In this document: positions 16,420 to 48,481 of the stretch, in pieces
How positions within the stretch are numbered: the stretch's first letter is position 1
Layout: every line of letters begins with the position of its first letter
From: Dillenia suffruticosa
Lineage: Eukaryota > Streptophyta > Magnoliopsida > Dilleniales > Dilleniaceae
DNA length: 64,000 bases
Assembly: GCA_033439265.1 (NCBI GenBank)
Contig: JAVTVX010000012.1
Location: 34,536,261 to 34,600,260 of the forward strand
Reading direction: 5' to 3'
Made by a program: the position numbers and the translations under genes
The notes under the pieces: generated by a model
Database searches by the model: none
Told to the model about the DNA's origin: nothing
Seen by the model: the letters and a program-made list of their open reading frames with translations, nothing else

Positions 16420-17261
16420 AACTCGCGACAAAGTCCCTAGAGAGAGAGAGAGGAGTCCGCTGGGGGGCGGAGGGGGAAGGAGAGAGAGAGGGGAGGACCG
16501 TGGCGGGGTGCAGAGGGGGGAGGGAGGGAGAGAGAGAGGAGGGCTGTGGAGGGGGAGGGAGGGAGAGAAAGAGGGGAGGGTGGCGGGGGGTCCGCCGGGG
16601 GAGGGAGAGAGAGAAAGAGGGGAGGAACGCGACGGGGGGCAGAAGGGGGAAGGAGAGAGAGGGGAGGGGTGCGGCGGGGGGAGGGAGAGAGAGAGGGGAG
16701 GGCCGCGGGGGGGCGGAGGGGAGAGGGAGGGAGAGAAAGAGGGGAGGGTGCGGGGGGGTTCGCCAGGGGAGGGAGAGAGAGAAAGAGGGGAGGAGTGCGG
16801 CACTGCCGCTCCCCTCCTCTGTGGCTCTGTCTCTCTCTCCCTCCTCTCTGCCCCCGTCCTCCCCTTTGTCTCTCTCCTCCCCCCTCCGCCCCTGGCTCCT
16901 CCCTTCTTTCTCTCTCTCCCCCTCTCCCCCTCCCCCCCTCCCCCTCCCCCCCTCCGCCCCCTCGTCGAGGTCCTCCCCTCTTTCTCTGCCTCCCCGTCTG
17001 CCCCCCGCAGCCGTCCCCTCTTTCTCTCTCTCCCTCCCCAGGCATACCCCCGCGGCGCTCCCCTCTTTCTCTCCCTCCCTCCCCCCTCTACCTCCCGCGG
17101 CCCTCTCCTCACTCTCTCTCCCCCCTCCGCACCCTGTTGCGGTCCTCCCCCCTCTCTCTCCTTCCCCCTCCGCCCCCTCCCCTGCCGCTCTCCTCCCCTC
17201 CCTCCCTCCCTCCCTCTCCCACGGACTTCTCTCTCTATCTCTCTTGACTTTGTTGCGAGTT
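16420..17261. mobile_element. Foldback element with purine-rich left arm and pyrimidine-rich right arm
   Basis: The ends are inverted repeats: left AACTCGCGACAAAGTC then AGAGAG...AGTCCG, and the right end, read in reverse complement, AACTCGCAACAAAGTC then AGAGAG...AGTCCG. Between them the plus strand is G/A-rich minisatellite to about 16803 (units of roughly 40-50 bp built on GGGAGGGAGAGAGAGA plus GCGGCGGGG), then C/T-rich units to the right end. The turn is at GTGCGGC-ACT-GCCGC near 16803. It encodes nothing I recognise; long open frames on both strands (up to about 310 codons) are low-complexity by-products. No clean target-site duplication was found, so the class is unknown. A foldback or MITE-like DNA element is the best reading. 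Confidence 0.65.
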
Positions 17262-17920
17262 GAAAATGCGATATAGTGTGTAACGTCTCAGACTCCTGAT
17301 AAATGTAGATTAGAAACGTAAATACCTTTTCATTTAGGTTATTTTATTTTATTTTTTTGTGTTATTTCAAAACATTAGTATTGGATTGGGTGTATCTAGA
17401 CAATGATCACCATTTTGGAATTGCCGATTTTGATTTTGGAACACTCACTTTGTAATTTAGGGCTATTGGAATCGAAAGATAAAGCGGTGGTCACGATTTA
17501 GGAATTCTGAACCTGTCAATGGCGTGGTTAGAATCTTGGTTAGAATCTTGATCATGATCTTGTGGATAACAATACTCTCTCTCTCTCTCTCAAACAAATC
17601 GAGTGGATCAAAAAGTCCAAGCGACGTTGACAGCACCAAAACCTGAGAATCCTCCTTTTGTCTCCTCTCTCACACCTCTTGTCCAACTAAACCCTTCCAC
17701 GCAATCCCTAACACCCCCCCTTCTCTCTCTCTCTCTCTTCAAATTTCCAGAGAGAACATAAAAATAAAAAACCCCAAAGCCACTAAAACCCACTAAAGAT
17801 CTCTCTCTCTCTCTCTCTACAGTGATTCCTGTCGCCCTCAATTGACGGCTTTCCCACCACTTCTGTCTCCCTCTCTCTCCCCATATAAAAATTAGGGTTT
17901 TTCTTATTCATTTTTTCCAA
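17262..17920 (+). promoter_or_regulatory. MED16 promoter and 5' UTR
   Basis: The stretch before the MED16 ATG is CT-rich: 17575-17592, 17720-17740, 17800-17820 and 17866-17880 are CT runs. A telo-box-like TTAGGGTTT lies at 17892-17900, common in housekeeping 5' leaders. The transcription start cannot be placed from sequence alone. Confidence 0.5.
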
Positions 17921-20900
17921 ATGAATTCAGCCTCAGGAGGAGTCAAGGACTCTGAGGACGAGTCCGTGTCTGGAGCTATCGAGCCGACGACGACGAAGAG
18001 TTCCGAGAAAAACGAAGAGAGTGGAGGCGAAGAAGAAGTTGTAGACAAAACGGCGACAATGTCCGACGATCCTATGGACGAGGATTCTGTGAATCCCTCC
18101 GCTGTTTTTAGTATTCGACTGAAACAACCTAGGTCCAATTTGCAGTACAAAATGAGTGTTCCTGAACTCTGCCGCAATTTCAGGTTTGTTTTGAGCAAAT
18201 TTTAGTTTTTGATGAACAAAAATGGAAATACGTAGCACATTGAATACTCGACTAAGCATTAACGTTAATCCCGTGTTTGTTGAATTCATAGGACGCGCCT
18301 TAAAATGGTAGCATTTGTGCAATTTTTCAAGTTTGGTTTGCTATTATTAACTTTTTTGTGGAAATTAATGATGGGGATGGGAGTTTCATGAATTGGTCGC
18401 TGAATTTTGTAGTGTGGAATTTGTTGAATTTTGATGTGTTTTAGGCATCAGTCTTGTATTGGATGTTATAATTTGTGAGGTGTTGGGGTTATGAATCATG
18501 GTATCCACTTGTGTGACCTAGATGGCAATGCGGGTGAGGACTAGGAATAGATTTCGGCGTCCTGTCCGTGCCGATTTGCTCGAAAGAGAAAAAAATTTGC
18601 TCCTATAATCCGTTTGTGTAGGGATGAACATCCCTGATGGTGCCCTTCCCTCCTCTCTTCTCAACTTCTATATCCTTTGTGTGTGTGCGTGTGTGTGTGT
18701 GTGTGTGTGGGAAAGAGAGAGAGGCTCTGTCATTTCCACCGTGACAGAAGTCACCTGGAGGACCTTTCCAAGGATTTTTTGTTGGGGGGGTGGCAAAAAT
18801 TTTACAAAATGGAGGTTATGTTGTTGCAGGGGCCTCTTTGAACTTAATACTTATTTTTGACCTTTCTTACCAAAAAAAGAATAAAACTCATTTTCACCTC
18901 AATTGTGGGAGTGATTAATTGGAACAGGGTGGCTCACTTTCTACAACCTGTTTCTTTTCCTACAAATGCAAATCACGTTGTGACACAATACTATATCTGG
19001 ATTAGTGAAACCCGTGTCACCAAGGTTATGGTTAGATTTCTTGCTGCGTTAGGTGAACTTACAAATGGGATCGGTGAAAATTTGAAAAAGCTATGAAAAT
19101 CCTCCAACTTTGAATCATTTGCTTGTTTGCTAAAATTGATATTCAAAAAACAATGGTTACCCTGTAGAGAAATCAATATTTCATTAATGCCTCTTTATTT
19201 TCGGCCAACTCATATTAGTCAAGAAGATGATTCTTTGATTTCTAAAGAGGCGTTAGTGGACTCCTTGGTTTATCTGCAAGGTGATTACTGTTTCCAAATG
19301 TGAAATGTGAAGGAAGAACTCATATAAGTCAAGGAACCAGAGCCACACCACTCATCATGCCAAAAAAGACTCTCAACTTATTATCCACTTTGAGCTTCAA
19401 CATGCTCCTAAAAATTTATCATGCTGTCCTAATCTTCTTCCACATAGTCACCCCATGAGGCTTAAAAACCTCATTAGACATCCAACTATTACGAGAAGTC
19501 CCATATTTAGCCACAATAACCTCTTTCTAAAGGAAGTTGTTCTTGTCCAAGAACTTCCAAAACTATTTCCACTACAGAGCCACCTAACCAGAGTAAATTT
19601 CATCACTTCCCCAAGGGGATCTTCTTTAGATACTGCCATCTTTTTTGCTAGTGAAGTAGTGATGGGAAAAGGGACACAAAATAATCTGACACGTTAGAAA
19701 ATGTGTTTTGACGAGATTAAGTACCCTCTTTGCCTGCACTAAGAGAGGTACCCACTTCTCCAACCTGCTAGCTGTTTCTCAAACTTCTCCATAATTCCAT
19801 CCCAAGTAGCATTCTCTTTATGCTTTGCTCCAAAAGGAAGCCCCTATATGTTGGTGGTGTCCCCATTTTCCACCCAAGAATAGTTGTTAACAAACTACTA
19901 TTAACCTTGTCATCCAGTGGAATAATCTCACTTTTTGCAGGATTCATCCTCAAAGCAGATGCCATCTTGAAGATCAACAACATACGAGAAAGAAAACCCA
20001 TTTTTGTCATAGAATATTGTTGTGTCATCTGCGAGCAAGATGCAAGAGATAGAAAGAGCTGCTCCCTCCTTTGAACCTTGAAACAAGTAATCACTACATT
20101 TTTTCTGTGGTGGAGAACATTTTGCTTAGCACATCCATGATTAAGATAAAAAGAAAAGGGGAGAGCGAATCTTTTTGTCTCACACCTCAGAGAACTATGA
20201 AAGGGGCTACTAGAGGAACCATTCACTAATATCGAGAAAGAAAGTTAGATAGATTTCCAAATAGAAGCCATCCATTGGCAACAATAAGGATTTACTTCCT
20301 TGGCACAAAGGCATGCTGGATTTTCCAGACCACACCCTCAGTAACCCCTTGAACCTTCCTAGTAAGACTTTTAACAATAGCTTATACTGTCTCTGCTAAT
20401 CTAATGGGTCTAAAAAAAGTCTTTTAGAAAAAATAATAATAAAATTTTTAGGAATAGGAACTAGGAAAGTGCTAGTCAAATTTCTCTTCAAATCATTCGA
20501 GACATGAAACTTGGCAAAAAAAGTCCATTTCCTCTTCCTTACCCCCTCTCAATTCTCCTTAGAAAGCCATCAAGAAGAAATCCAAGTCAGAAGGCTTATC
20601 TCCATTGCACTCCTTTAAAACTGCAACTACTTCCTCCTTAGAAAAAGGCTCTCTAGCCAGCTTGCTTTCTCCCCTGTACCTTTATAGTACTGAAAGCTAT
20701 GCCATTGACCTTTGGTTTCCATGAGCTATGTTTACGTACAGCTCCTTATAATTATTGCATATGTCCTCCTCCATACCATTGCCCTAGTGAAGCAGCTCCT
20801 CGTCAACTTCAATACTAGATGAAGAGTTTAGTTTGGAATAGATATTTGCTATTTTGTGAAATTGCCCTCTTCATTAAGCCAAAGAACCTGGATACCTGAA

Positions 20901-42626: not shown

Positions 42627-42728
42627 AACCAACGTAACATACCCGTTGACGGATCGACTCTGATACAAAACAGCTGAAAATGAATAGAAATGAATAGTTG
42701 CGGTGATCAGGGGAAGAGAGAGAGAGAG

Positions 42729-43011
42729 ATGAGTGCAGCAACGGCAGGATCACACTCACTGGCTTTTAGGGTAATGAGATTATGCAGGCCATCATTTCAC
42801 GTAGAAACCCCTCTTCTCCTCAACCCTAACGACCTCTTCTTCGGCGAAGACCTTCATGACGATCTCTCTCTCTCCTCTCGCCTCAACGATCTCACTTCCT
42901 CATTATTCCACAACTCCGATTCCGATCTCTCCTACAAGTCCAGATTCCTTCTTCCCCACTCTTCCGATGCTATTGGCCTCTCTGGCCTCCTCGTTCTTCC
43001 TCAGTCTTTCG

Positions 43012-43048
<37 letters not shown>

Positions 43049-46000
43049 TTGGATCTGTTGAGTGATTGATTAGGGTTTGTTTGGGGTTTTTTTTTTCAGG
43101 GCTATTTATCTGGGAGAGACGTTTTGCAGCTATATAAGTATCAATAACAGTTCAAATTTTGAAGTCCGGGATGTCACGATCAAGGTTTGTTGAATTTATG
43201 ATTTGAATAATGCATGATTTAATTAAATTCATGGTAATAACGTGATATGTTGATAACAAATTGGAGATTTTGAGGTTGCTATTCCAATTGTTTGACATTG
43301 TGAATTCGATTGCCCATTGTCGTGGACAATCATAATTCCATAGAAAGGCTGAAGATTGCTACCGAAGATTGCTAATGGGCGGCTAGCTTTTATAAAAGGA
43401 AAGGTCAAATGTGCGAGACACTTCGCAAATGTGTATGTATATATATCTTTGAGCTTTTCTAGAGCAATAGCAAAATAAGCAAGATGAAGTATTCTCAGTT
43501 TCAATCAGTAGCTGAGTTCTTTCCACGTAGATAAAATTCAGATAAAGAAAATACTTGAAACAAGTGTATTTTTGTTCAACATTGTGGTAAACGTCTGTGT
43601 TGATGAATAAAAAGATTGACTTTTTGATGGAAATAACTACCTGGGAAATTTAGAAGTAACATGTTTGTTGATTTGTCAAAGAGGGCATACTTACTAATAA
43701 ATAGAGATGGTGAAGGGCAAAAAGATGAAAGTTCATAAGGTACTTAAGTTGATATGGATTATTGAAATAAAGATTATTAAGTGGATTCTTTATAAATTGA
43801 GGTAGTTCTGTCAATTATTTGGTTGTCTTTATGTGGCAGCTCATAGTTTCAATAATCTTATGAATGCAACACGCAAAATGGGTTAATGGTTTCAGGCAGA
43901 AATTCAAACAGAAAGGCAGAGAATACTACTTCTAGATACATCCAAGTCACCTGTTGAATCAATAAGAGCAGGAGGGCGATATGATTTTATTGTGGAACAT
44001 GATGTGAAGGAACTTGGTGGACACACGTAAGTCGTTTCTCTAGTAGTTTTCTCGGGATAATTTCTTGATGAATGTAACTTAATCTAACTAGCCATGTTAC
44101 TTCGAATTTTAGGCTGGTCTGCACTGCTTTGTACAGTGATGGTGAGGGTGAACGGAAATATCTTCCACAATTTTTCAAGTTCAACATTTCAAATCCACTA
44201 TCAGTGAGGACAAAGGTACAATACAGGATGTTAAAAAATTTAAAGACATCACTTATTTGATGCATTGTTTACTCTGGTTTTTTCTCTTGATAAACAACAG
44301 TTTCTGGCATTTCAAATTTAATGATCATTAGTTTCTTTTACAGGTTCGTGTGGTGAAGGTATGTTGATGTTGAATAGTTTCTCTGTAAGTCCACAAATCT
44401 TGTCTTATTGTTCATCCAATCTTGAGGAAGCGAGATTGTTGGCGCTCTTAATTCTAAATAATGTCTTTTTTGCTAAGCATTAGTAACAAGGTGATTTCGA
44501 TCAAGCAGACCTCAACTAGTTTGGAATATATGATCTAGTTGAATCGAGTTGGTTCCTAAGATAAGGAGCTATGGATGTGTCAACATTTTCCGTGGTTCAG
44601 ATGGTAAAGACAAGATTTTAATTTCTTCAGATTAGGTTCTTAGAGAACGGAAGAGAGAAATGGGGTTATTGCCAGTGATATATATATAGTGCAAATAGTA
44701 ATTAGCTACCTGGAATTAAGTGTAAACACTCATGTTTATTCTTGAGTACATACTCATCTAGTTCCCTTCTGGAATAGGTTGATATTGCATGCTGATACCC
44801 TTTGTCCATCAAAGAATTTTGACCTTCATAACAACATGTGGCCTCATATAAATAATTGTGTGAAATGAAGCCACATATGATGTTTTCCTGTTCTGTAAAA
44901 AAATGTTTTCTTAGAATCTTATATTATTTTAATAGTGGTCCTTGAATGTCAGGAAACAACGTTTCTGGAAGCTTGCATTGAGAATCATACAAAGTCTAAC
45001 CTTTTCATGGACCAAGTGGAGTTTGAGCCTGCTCAGCATTGGACTGCAACAATGCTTAAAGCCGACGAGCATCCATCTGAGAACAATACTTTGGCTAGGT
45101 ACTGAGCTAGAATTGCTTTAGGAATGAAATACCTGCAATTTATGGATACGTGGTCTTGCTTGATTTTGTTGTAACTCCTAAGATTTTCTATCTAACTTAG
45201 ATTTCAACTATTGTATGTCTTACCTTTATTCTGGCTCATTGTTTTTCACTTATTAATGTGCTGACAGAGAGTTTTTCAAGCCACCAGTTATTATCAGATC
45301 GGGGGGAGGGATTCAGAACTATCTCTATCAGTTGAAATCCTCTGCTCAAGGTTCTGCTTATACAAAGCTTGAAGGAAGCAATGTTCTTGGGAAGCTTCAA
45401 ATTACTTGGCGGACTAATCTAGGTGAACCTGGGCGCCTGCAGACACAGCAGATTCTTGGCAGTGTGGGTACTTGTTCATTACCTTTAAGTCCATTATATC
45501 TATATGTTAATGATTTTCTTGCCTTCCTGTTCTATAAGTCAATCTTTCTTTTCCTTTCCTGATTAATCTTTCTTTTCCTTTCCTGGTTTGTCACAAAATG
45601 TATGTCCAATTTGGCACACATTCTCCAACACCCAACAACTCCAACCTGTGTCACAAAATATATATATTTTTTTGTCTTTGCATGTTCAGAGTTGCATCTT
45701 GAGCTTCATCCTAAATTCCTCATGTTCTGATAGGTTTTGACGAGCTTTGTACGCATATATCCATTAAAAAAAAAAAATTTAAAACATCTCCCGTTGGAAA
45801 AAATTTTCGAAATTGACACAATATGTCGAAGACTCGACATGCATGAGCAGTGCATGTCGAGTCTTGAAGACTCGACATACTTAAAAAAAAAATGAACAGT
45901 GCATGTGGAGAGTTGAACTCTCGACATGCATAGTACATGTGGAGAGTTGAACTCTCGACATGCACTATGCTCTCCTCCCTCTCTGCCTCTCTCCTTCTCT

Positions 46001-48481
46001 CCCTCCCTCCTTCCCTCCCTCCCCCACTCTCTCTCCCGAAATCCAAGAGGGAGAGAGAGAGAGAGGGATGGAGAGAGAGAGAGAGAGGCAGAGAAGCGGG
46101 AGGGAGATAGAGAGAGAGAGAGAGGGGGAGGGAGGGAGGGAGAGACAGAGAGGGAGGAGAGCACAGTGCATGTCGAGAGTTCGACTCTCGACATGCATTG
46201 TTCATTTTTTTTTTTTTAAGTATGTCGAGTCTAGTGCATGTCGAGTCTTGAAAACTCGACATGTTGTGTCAATTTCGAAAATTTTTTCCCACGAGAGATG
46301 TTTTAAAATTTTTTTTCTCATGGATATATGCGTACAAAGCTCAGGTTTTGACTTCAGATTGTCAATAAATACAAATTTGAGCAACAAAACTTCCTGATTT
46401 GGAAATTGAAATCTGGTGTTCTGAGATACAGGTTGTTTCAAAAGGACCATCAATTATGACTAAGCATATCCATTCTACTGACAAGTGGGCCAGTTAGGCC
46501 ACTGGATTTTTAGAAATAGTAGAGTTTTGCTACTTAAGTTTTCAGATAAGTCACCAGTGACACCATTAGCTCACATTCATCTGCAACATCTACGGTCCAG
46601 AATCTGATAATGTTCTTTTCTGCAGCCCATTTTGCGCAAAGAGATCGAGTTGCAAGTTGCGGAGGTTCCATCTGTTATCATTTTTGAAAGACCTTTTCTG
46701 GTAATGATATCCATCATATGTTTCCTGTAATTGTTCATCTTGATGATGTACATGGGTAGTGGTTGCCTCCTTTTAATAACTGAGGCAATCTGTCTCTACT
46801 TCTAAAATAAAGTAATATCAGAGTCAGTACTCCAGAAATGCAAGTTTCCATTTTTTCTTTTTAAATCTCTAGTTAGTAGTTGTGAACTCTAGTGCTTTTA
46901 GTAAATGAGTATTCATTTGTTCTGTAACTTGGAATCAGAATAGTAAATGATTAGGCAATCCACCCACATATTCTACAATAGTGACAGGAATCCCAAGGGA
47001 CAGCCCCTCTCTCTCTCTTCCCCTCCCCCCTTTTTTAAGGCCTTTTCTTATATATTGAGTAGTGGATCCATGCATGGACACAGAAATTAATTTTAGGTTC
47101 CATTATTTTTATGCCTTATAGGTACAGCTGAATCTCATTAATCAGACAGACAGAACGTTGGGTCCTTTCGAAGTTCAGTTATCACAAAGTGACTCCATGG
47201 AGAAGGTTGTCATGGTTAATGGTCTCCAGAAAACGGTAGGCCTTCTGTAGACTTTTGGGTCATGATACGTATTTTCTAATATTCTAATGAATGAGTAGGT
47301 TTTGTTGCTTCTCAAGTAATTTTTCCTATATACACAGTTTGTTTTAAGAGCTGGGAATGTCATATTGTTGAGTTTGCATTTAGTTCTAGCATCATTGTCA
47401 AGCTTAAAGTTCTCTTTTTAAGACATTGATGCTTGACACTTTGTGCAGGCTGTGCCACAAGTTGATGCATTTGCGTCCACCAAATTCCATGTGGTAAGCA
47501 CACACTTTGGACAGCTTTTCATAAAAAGAAAATAGGACACACTTTGGACATGGACTAATCAAGCAACTTAGTTTCAGATGTATCTTCTTCTCCAAATTTT
47601 GAAGGATATCATCTTGTTTCCTGATGAGAATTTGTGAAGACATTTTGAAATAAATTACACTTATAAGTATCTACAATCAGTCAGGACACAGGAGCTGAGA
47701 GGTTCAATGTTAAATTATATCCATTTCCCTTTATGCAGAATCTAATTGCTACCAAGCTTGGTGTCCAGAAAGTCACAGACTTCACAGTGTTTGACATACA
47801 TGAGAAGAAAGCCTATGACCTTTCACCAGATTTGGAGGTTAGTATATGAAATTACTATTTTGCTTTAACCTATCCTCACTGCTCTTATGATTATGCAAAC
47901 GGATCACTCTGTTGTTGAAACTGCTCAAGAAGTTTAAATGTTCCTGTGCTATAGTCTAGTTTTTGGGGTTGGGCTGTCTTGTCCGAATTTGATCAAAAAG
48001 TAGTCATGATTACAAGGCAAAAAATTTTGGCATTGATAAATATTTAATACTTTATTTGGCCATAAATTAATTTTAGTGGAAACTGGGGGATTGTTGTGTC
48101 TTTTAACTTCCCAATCCATGTATCCTAGCAAAAAAAGTTCAGAACTGTATATGCATTTCTAAAGAAAGTCTTTGACAAAAATCGCACTGTCAAATAACCA
48201 AGGTTAAAGCCATGCTCAAAATTCATATTTTACTATGCAAGAATCCGGTCCTAGTTCCTGCGCAAGTGAGAATGGCACTGGACCATGATGTAAGGAGTGT
48301 TGTACAATTGCACACCAAGGGTTTTCTTCTCCTTTTTCTCTTTTTGTTTCTAAAGATAGATGACTACCCAATTTTTATTTTGTGTTCGTTCGGCATTTTG
48401 CAGATATTTGTGGGTTCAGATGTGGCAAATCAAGTAGGAGAGGAACAACCTGCATGTTCATTTGACTCGCGTTACATATGA
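42729..48481 (+). CDS. TRAPPC13: Trafficking protein particle complex subunit 13 (TRAPPC13)
   Basis: Complete gene, 456 aa. Exons: 42729-43012, 43100-43184, 43896-44026, 44113-44215, 44344-44358, 44953-45098, 45268-45463, 46626-46700, 47122-47235, 47449-47493, 47739-47837, 48404-48481. TRAPPC13 (DUF974 family) is a peripheral TRAPP subunit, a Rab exchange complex acting at the Golgi and in post-Golgi traffic. Family features in order are HSLAFRVMRLCRPSFHVETP, IYLGETFCSYISINN, VRDVTIKAEIQTERQR, YDFIVEHDVKELGGHTLVC, FFKFNISNPLSVRTK, EACIENHTKSNLFMDQVEFE, LGKLQITWRTNLGEPGRLQT, and a C-terminal part with VPSVIIFERPF and FASTKFHVNLIATKLGVQ. The inner ATG at 42729 was chosen over 42690 because homologues begin just before SHSLAFRVMR. 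Exon 5 is a 15-nt microexon encoding VRVVK. Intron 7 starts at a weak donor (AGT/gtgggt) and contains the foldback element. Confidence 0.95.
43013..43044 (+). repeat. (CT)n microsatellite at the 5' splice site of TRAPPC13 intron 1
   Basis: The intron begins GTCTCTCTCT and stays CT for about 30 nt, so the donor sits inside the repeat's edge. Confidence 0.9.
45732..46352. mobile_element. MULE-like foldback element with 10-bp target duplication
   Basis: The element proper is 45742-46342 (601 bp). It is flanked by the direct repeat AGGTTTTGAC at 45732-45741 and 46343-46352. Its ends are long inverted repeats beginning GAGCTTTGTACGCATATATC at both termini, and they remain alignable for about 90 bp (AAAACATCTC, AAATTTTCGAAATTGACACA). 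Further in are palindromic CATGTCGAG/CTCGACATG blocks, then a C/T-rich left arm (45970-46035) facing a G/A-rich right arm (46048-46160). The 10-bp duplication and long terminal repeats fit Mutator-like non-autonomous elements. No transposase is encoded; open frames of up to 180 codons here are low-complexity. It lies wholly in TRAPPC13 intron 7. Confidence 0.88.

Follow-up and report, generated by a model that had tools for sequence, protein, structure and literature searches.

The closest published case that we found to the element described here is MuTAnT of Medicago truncatula, a Mutator-like element (MULE) family of short modular foldbacks with a larger mudrA-like partner, AutoMuTAnT, for which paralogous empty sites were also used (PMC4486113). 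Our element lies in a 64,000-nt stretch of Dillenia suffruticosa DNA, called the window throughout (contig JAVTVX010000012.1, positions 34,536,261 to 34,600,260), inside an intron of the gene TRAPPC13, and resembles MuTAnT in each of these respects. It is almost certainly a non-autonomous foldback member, of the size of a miniature inverted-repeat transposable element (MITE), of a MULE family of its host genome, which most likely moved into the intron after two TRAPPC13 copies had separated and is now most likely passive. The class of object is familiar; the Dillenia family differs from MuTAnT in its ends (GGGG in MuTAnT), its 27-bp palindromic modules, the plant mobile domain of its long members and the length of its target duplications, which measure 10 bp in place of the 9 nt that MuTAnT, mostly 200–300 bp long, duplicates at TA microsatellite targets (PMC4486113).

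FARE of Arabidopsis is likewise a plant foldback with a MULE transposase and long palindromic end repeats, a likeness taken from published descriptions (PMC4486113, PMC3169594). The root-knot nematode element Tm1 and the Aedes element Muta1 are MULEs with composite foldback ends of repeated short motifs and with non-autonomous derivatives, and the tip of Muta1 also holds a 10-bp imperfect palindrome; their repeats, however, are 9–15-bp tandem repeats rather than 27-bp palindromes, and their duplications span 8–9 bp (PMC3169594, PMC5225508). The MULEs that Ikeda et al. 2017 describe from several grasses and Amborella likewise unite a transposase with a plant mobile domain, there as fusion proteins, whereas here the two occur as broken frames in one element (PMC5418596). 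Maize Mu killer is a hairpin-type MULE derivative that includes its ends, as ours does, but it is about 4 kb long, holds transposase sequence and has reported silencing, while the Dillenia element is 0.6 kb long and has no transposase sequence (PMC3440606). In the open literature searched, which did not cover the original description of FARE, we came across no MULE whose ends are described as holding arrays of 27-bp palindromes.

The element occupies 601 bp (45742–46342), and copies of AGGTTTTGAC at 45732–45741 and 46343–46352 directly adjoin its two ends. Both termini start with GAGCTTTGTACGCATATATCCAT, and the first 23 bp are identical at the two ends. The original prediction of a 601-bp unit with near-identical inverted ends, a perfect 10-bp target duplication, nested palindromes and a central CT arm facing a GA arm is borne out by the sequence, with one palindrome at 46167–46197 rather than at about 46166–46196. 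The features are:

45732..45741, + strand: left target-site duplication AGGTTTTGAC, adjoining the end; the paralogue has a single AGGTTTCGAC
45742..46342, + strand: complete non-autonomous foldback MULE, 601 bp
45742..45824, + strand: left outer terminal inverted repeat, extending to palindromic module 1; its terminal 23 bp recur unchanged at the other end
45825..45843, + strand: palindromic module 1, centre shorter than in the right arm
45854..45878, + strand: palindromic module 2, TCT/AGA version
45902..45962, + strand: pair of AGT/ACT modules that make a 34-bp direct repeat; one in the right arm
45970..46037, + strand: CT-rich arm
46035..46049, + strand: core CCCGAAATCCAAGAG, found in 20 of 46 distinct places with at most 2 mismatches and in 0 of 6 long elements
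46046..46161, + strand: GA-rich arm
46167..46197, + strand: right-arm module of the AGT/ACT version, 14-bp arms around TCG
46222..46263, + strand: right-arm TCT/AGA modules, the first a half module
46264..46342, - strand: right outer terminal inverted repeat
46343..46352, + strand: right target-site duplication AGGTTTTGAC
45464..46625, + strand: TRAPPC13 intron holding the element, 1162 nt long, or 551 nt once the element and one copy of the duplication are taken out

In an automatic alignment of the inverted arms, 220 of the 234 ungapped columns match and 14 do not; a further 69 columns hold gaps. The outer repeat of ~83 bp and the modules together form the long terminal inverted repeat, of about 100 bp or more, characteristic of a MULE. 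The arms differ by indels inside modules, namely 7 bases at the centre of module 1, the half module on the right and the 34-bp repeat on the left, as would be expected if they arose in hairpin-prone DNA. The second module has 12-bp palindrome arms, which contain the 11-bp arms of the original prediction. Stop-to-stop frames of 100–182 codons overlap the element and appear by eye to be low-complexity read-through of the CT/GA and palindromic stretches. At 601 bp, non-coding, multi-copy and with ends common to coding elements, the element has the properties of a MITE; made mostly of an inverted repeat of repeated modules, with 494 of 601 bases pairing internally in the predicted fold, it also has those of a foldback.

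A script scan of the window (10-bp exact seed, elements of 100–3000 bp, flanking duplications of 8–11 bp) returns this as the only element with inverted ends and a directly flanking duplication. The terminal 23-mer, allowing at most 3 mismatches, matches the window twice, both times in the element, and 100 shuffles give no match. When the element is compared by BLAST with the remainder of the window, most of the matches listed are CT/GA and poly-A/T simple repeats. Exact searches for the 23-bp end in viral and prokaryote collections, and for the AGT/ACT module in the viral one, found no match, which is unsurprising for an element of plant origin.

The host gene is recognised by Pfam matches on the + strand to TRAPPC13_N (42684–43058, 2.1e-6; 43887–44027, 2.8e-6) and TRAPPC13_M (45257–45559, 2.3e-11); three of the six stop-free stretches scanned gave no match, nor did a PDB search with one TRAPPC13 exon. 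The reading frame QQILGS / PILRKEIELQVAEVPSVIIFERPFL / VQLNLINQTDRTLGPFEV runs clean across the introns 45464–46625 and 46701–47121, which places the element inside a TRAPPC13 intron, as the original prediction held. The element and one duplication copy account for 611 nt of the 1162-nt intron.

Further copies are found across the host genome (596,357,000 bases in 37 contigs). The terminal 20-mer occurs 108 times with at most 2 mismatches (62 forward, 46 reverse), against one match of a reversed-pattern control (0 forward, 1 reverse), and the whole element as query yields 143 matches, from 40 scored of 841 candidates. The loci examined, 6 from the search, 36 fetched and 8 added later, cover part of the 108 termini; these entries, L001–L050, represent 46 distinct places, four places being included twice. 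Elements were paired by fuzzy ends (at most 5 edits to the 23-mer) and range from 481 bp to 6.2 kb. When a 10-bp length and a boundary exactly at the ends are imposed, a duplication matching in at least 8 of 10 positions flanks 17 of 21 paired elements and is perfect in 11; the family makes 10-bp target duplications. Mispaired flanks reach this level in 1 of 420 combinations, and mean boundary identity is 83% at 10 bp as opposed to 31–38% at 8, 9, 11 and 12 bp. For L002, whose end has CTTTG in excess, the start was shifted 5 bases by eye; L039 has a G-rich, low-complexity duplication.

Six elements with the same ends are 4.4–6.2 kb long (L030, L031, L032, L034, L040 and L041). From these, 20 separate open pieces were submitted to Pfam, 7 of which gave no match. 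The remainder include DBD_Tnp_Mut (L030, 1.1e-7; L040, 9.9e-8), a MULE domain that in L032 (6e-15) alone passes the curated cut-off, SWIM (L030, 9.7e-10) and a plant mobile domain (L031, 3.9e-41; also L034, L040 and L041). The related elements thus encode a MuDR-type DDE transposase, by fragments only. Plant mobile domain fragments (L031, L034, L040 and L041) lie inside this family, in which the domain and the transposase occur in one element in broken frames. Since the long relatives have common ends with the 601-bp form and, taken together, hold pieces of a MuDR-type transposase and of a plant mobile domain, this is a MULE family, of which the 601-bp form is a non-autonomous foldback derivative; the 10-bp target duplication likewise falls within the range of about 9–11 bp typical of MULEs. 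The designation as a MULE-like foldback therefore stands on the common duplication, common termini and transposase-coding relatives.

The left part of the intron (45465–45741) matches one other place in the genome, C31:16859976-16860266 (L052), which aligns as a second TRAPPC13 copy with the same intron, one target copy and no insert. There the sequence reads CTGATAGGTTTCGACTTCAGATT. When the element is removed, the window flanks, spanning the intron and neighbouring exons, align to L052 straight through the junction, with 627 of 780 columns identical and 58 gap columns. The introns alone, 551 nt in the window without the element and 553 nt in the paralogue, share 432 matches, with 68 mismatches and 104 gap columns, which corresponds to a Jukes-Cantor divergence of 0.15. 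Separately, the presence of a second TRAPPC13 copy at an intron divergence of 0.15 suggests that the gene, or the genome, was duplicated in this plant.

The empty site that the original prediction called for is therefore present in the genome itself, and the outcome it had named as fatal, neither other copies nor an empty site, did not arise. As the paralogous intron has one target copy and no insert, insertion most likely followed the gene duplication, and precise insertion into the window copy is, judged from the two aligned sequences, the simplest and most likely reading. The original prediction had called the insertion fairly recent on the strength of the intact target duplication. This holds in a relative sense, in that the insertion most likely postdates a duplication with divergence 0.15; the intact 10-bp duplication is a weak clock, by itself compatible with a long time span, and the ends of the element lie 8–11% (8.2% and 10.7%) from the family consensus. 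Dating by this end divergence was abandoned, as 8–11% exceeds half of the intron divergence of 0.15; much of it must then predate the insertion or reflect faster decay.

Several observations weigh against the reading as a MULE family member inserted after the gene duplication. The paralogue target AGGTTTCGAC is one base off AGGTTTTGAC, and the insert may have been lost precisely from the paralogue in place of being gained in the window copy. At the fixed boundary, L009, L012, L018 and L031 (4 of the 21 pairs) have no good duplication, although L031 matches in 9 of 10 positions once its right end is moved by one base. Among five further pairs, two have a duplication (L048, 10 positions; L050, 8) and L043, L046 and L049 fall short, which brings the 10-bp duplication to 19 of 26 paired copies. 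The MULE domain falls under the curated cut-off in L030 (1.3e-5), L034 (0.0066) and L041 (0.0077). No open full-length transposase frame was seen among the frames listed for the long elements inspected, so mobilisation is inferred from structure; their frames are broken, and the longest open piece among those listed has 368 codons (L030). Family ends lie 7–32% from the consensus, so the family is not freshly amplified.

In the mechanism that we favour for a non-autonomous MULE gained by the window copy, a transposase from a long member would recognise the GAGCTTTGTACG... end, and possibly the repeated palindromes too, and would have moved the short element in trans, by a cut-and-paste reaction, into the intron once the two TRAPPC13 copies had become separate. 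In maize, a conserved motif of about 32 bp is bound by the transposase MURA (PMC3310237), and the long repeated ends of Galileo are reported as additional binding sites (PMC3688188); by analogy with Galileo, such a role is possible for the palindromes here. The long members examined carry modules in both ends, and neither end stands out as the source of the foldback arms: the one upstream of the transposase contains a CT tract of its own, and a GCTCCTCTCC-like junction at the other is similar to that of the foldbacks. Probably, two terminal segments joined head to head around a CT/GA core gave rise to the foldback form, which then spread as a subfamily of its own. At present the element most likely rides along passively in the gene and leaves with the intron at splicing.

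It could instead be active, if unspliced TRAPPC13 RNA formed a hairpin that is diced to 21–24 nt RNAs, which would silence family members sharing its ends, as a small analogue of maize Mu killer, or lower the expression of this TRAPPC13 copy. The original prediction that the intron transcript could fold into one very long hairpin holds as a folding prediction: the + strand RNA of the element folds at -385.9 kcal/mol, as against -168.7 (sd 7.2) in 20 shuffles (z -30). When the whole intron is folded, 494 of 601 element bases are predicted to pair within the element and none with the flanking intron, and the five longest unbroken helices span 22–25 bp, dimensions consistent with an active hairpin. 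Introns, however, are usually spliced fast. Of the 58 Rfam matches with E no higher than 1, not one attains the gathering score of its family, and thus none qualifies as a curated microRNA precursor; these sub-threshold matches are mostly microRNA models on the CT/GA core, which also argues against activity. In its favour, the element arms include the family ends, and transposase sites and promoters are located in the ends of MULEs (PMC3310237); Mu killer is itself a hairpin-type MuDR derivative that includes its ends (PMC3440606). Read-through transcripts of Mu killer from the flanking gene are reportedly not the silencing ones (PMC3440606), which lowers the odds of a small-RNA role here, and on balance we consider an active hairpin improbable.

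Membership in four other superfamilies was also considered. Target duplications measure 8 bp in hAT, 3 bp in CACTA, 3 bp in PIF/Harbinger and 2 bp in Tc1 elements. All four were rejected, the duplication here being 10 bp and the mean abutting match falling to 35% when it is read as 8 bp. A foldback of another superfamily (hAT, CACTA, PIF/Harbinger or P-like) with a 10-bp duplication by chance has in its favour that the foldback form occurs in several superfamilies, such as Galileo with its P-type transposase (PMC3169594), yet a duplication common to 17 of 21 pairs and coding relatives with MuDR-type domains leave this with next to no likelihood. Inverted duplication in place or microsatellite expansion without any insertion, suggested by the CT/GA simple sequence at the centre and the many such tracts in the window, is equally implausible given the uninserted paralogous intron, the target duplication and the dispersed relatives with the same ends.

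Each nested palindrome of this foldback MULE is a copy of one 27-bp unit (CATGTCGAG, nine bases, CTCGACATG), present at both ends of long and short family members. A fuzzy scan, for which the other element boundary was set by hand where one end alone was recognised, located 140 modules in 38 element definitions; 36 of these hold 2–8 modules, and L013 and L025 hold none. Two classes are distinguished, TCT/AGA with 114 modules and AGT/ACT with 26, and their arms differ symmetrically between versions. The AGT/ACT class and the core CCCGAAATCCAAGAG are typical of foldback members, both being absent from the six long elements. AGT modules occur without the core in L008, L016 and L045, and the core without AGT modules in L012, L013, L025 and L043; with at most 3 mismatches, AGT matches appear once in L017 (1.8 kb) and twice in L049 (2.3 kb). 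Pack-MULEs carry captured fragments of host genes; comparison of the core and the CT-GA centre of our element with the fetched loci, to which it was confined, did not find their source there. Some centres are multimeric, with GGTGGGTCCCACC palindromes in L004, L007, L010 and L043 and two or three core copies in L004, L007, L043 and L046; these look as if the core had been repeatedly duplicated and inverted.

Four pairs of partner columns in the modules played no part in module selection, and eight did. Columns 9 and 17 are complementary in 134 of 140 modules (shuffled mean 95, maximum 110 in 2000) and columns 10 and 16 in 95 of 140 (shuffled mean 49, maximum 68), while the two other selection-free pairs hardly vary (136 and 135 of 140). 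When the TCT/AGA class is taken by itself, columns 10 and 16 are complementary in 74 of 114 modules (shuffled mean 54), a count that none of 2000 shuffles equals. This pair also has the highest mutual information of 300 column pairs, both overall and within the TCT/AGA class (114 modules, 90 distinct). We tentatively suggest that the 27-bp palindromes may form a dyad-symmetric recognition array, with putative sites for a transposase or plant mobile domain protein, kept palindromic by selection or hairpin-guided correction, and that the AGT/ACT version of the foldback subfamily, in place of TCT/AGA, would be a changed end code. Such an array is a possible but rather doubtful reading: the ten other partner pairs (eight constrained by selection of modules, two nearly invariant) have no excess over shuffles, and the kinship of copies could explain part of the covariation signal.

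Elsewhere in the window, a second foldback-like structure of about 800 bp (16430–17265) consists of minisatellite-like repeats, GA-rich at first and CT-rich after that, and its inverted ends lie near AACTCGCGACAAAGTC / GACTTTGTTGCGAGTT. It overlaps open frames as long as 321 codons, and inspection by eye showed no clear target duplication. An open frame on the - strand (19768–20244) looks like what we take to be a LINE reverse transcriptase fragment.

One genome thus holds a complete case, comprising a short foldback, its coding relatives, 19 of 26 paired copies flanked by a 10-bp duplication and an uninserted site in a duplicated gene. The two TRAPPC13 copies, one with and one without a 600-nt intronic hairpin, are a natural test for small RNAs or a change in expression, and the family is suited to testing repeated palindromic modules as transposase sites.

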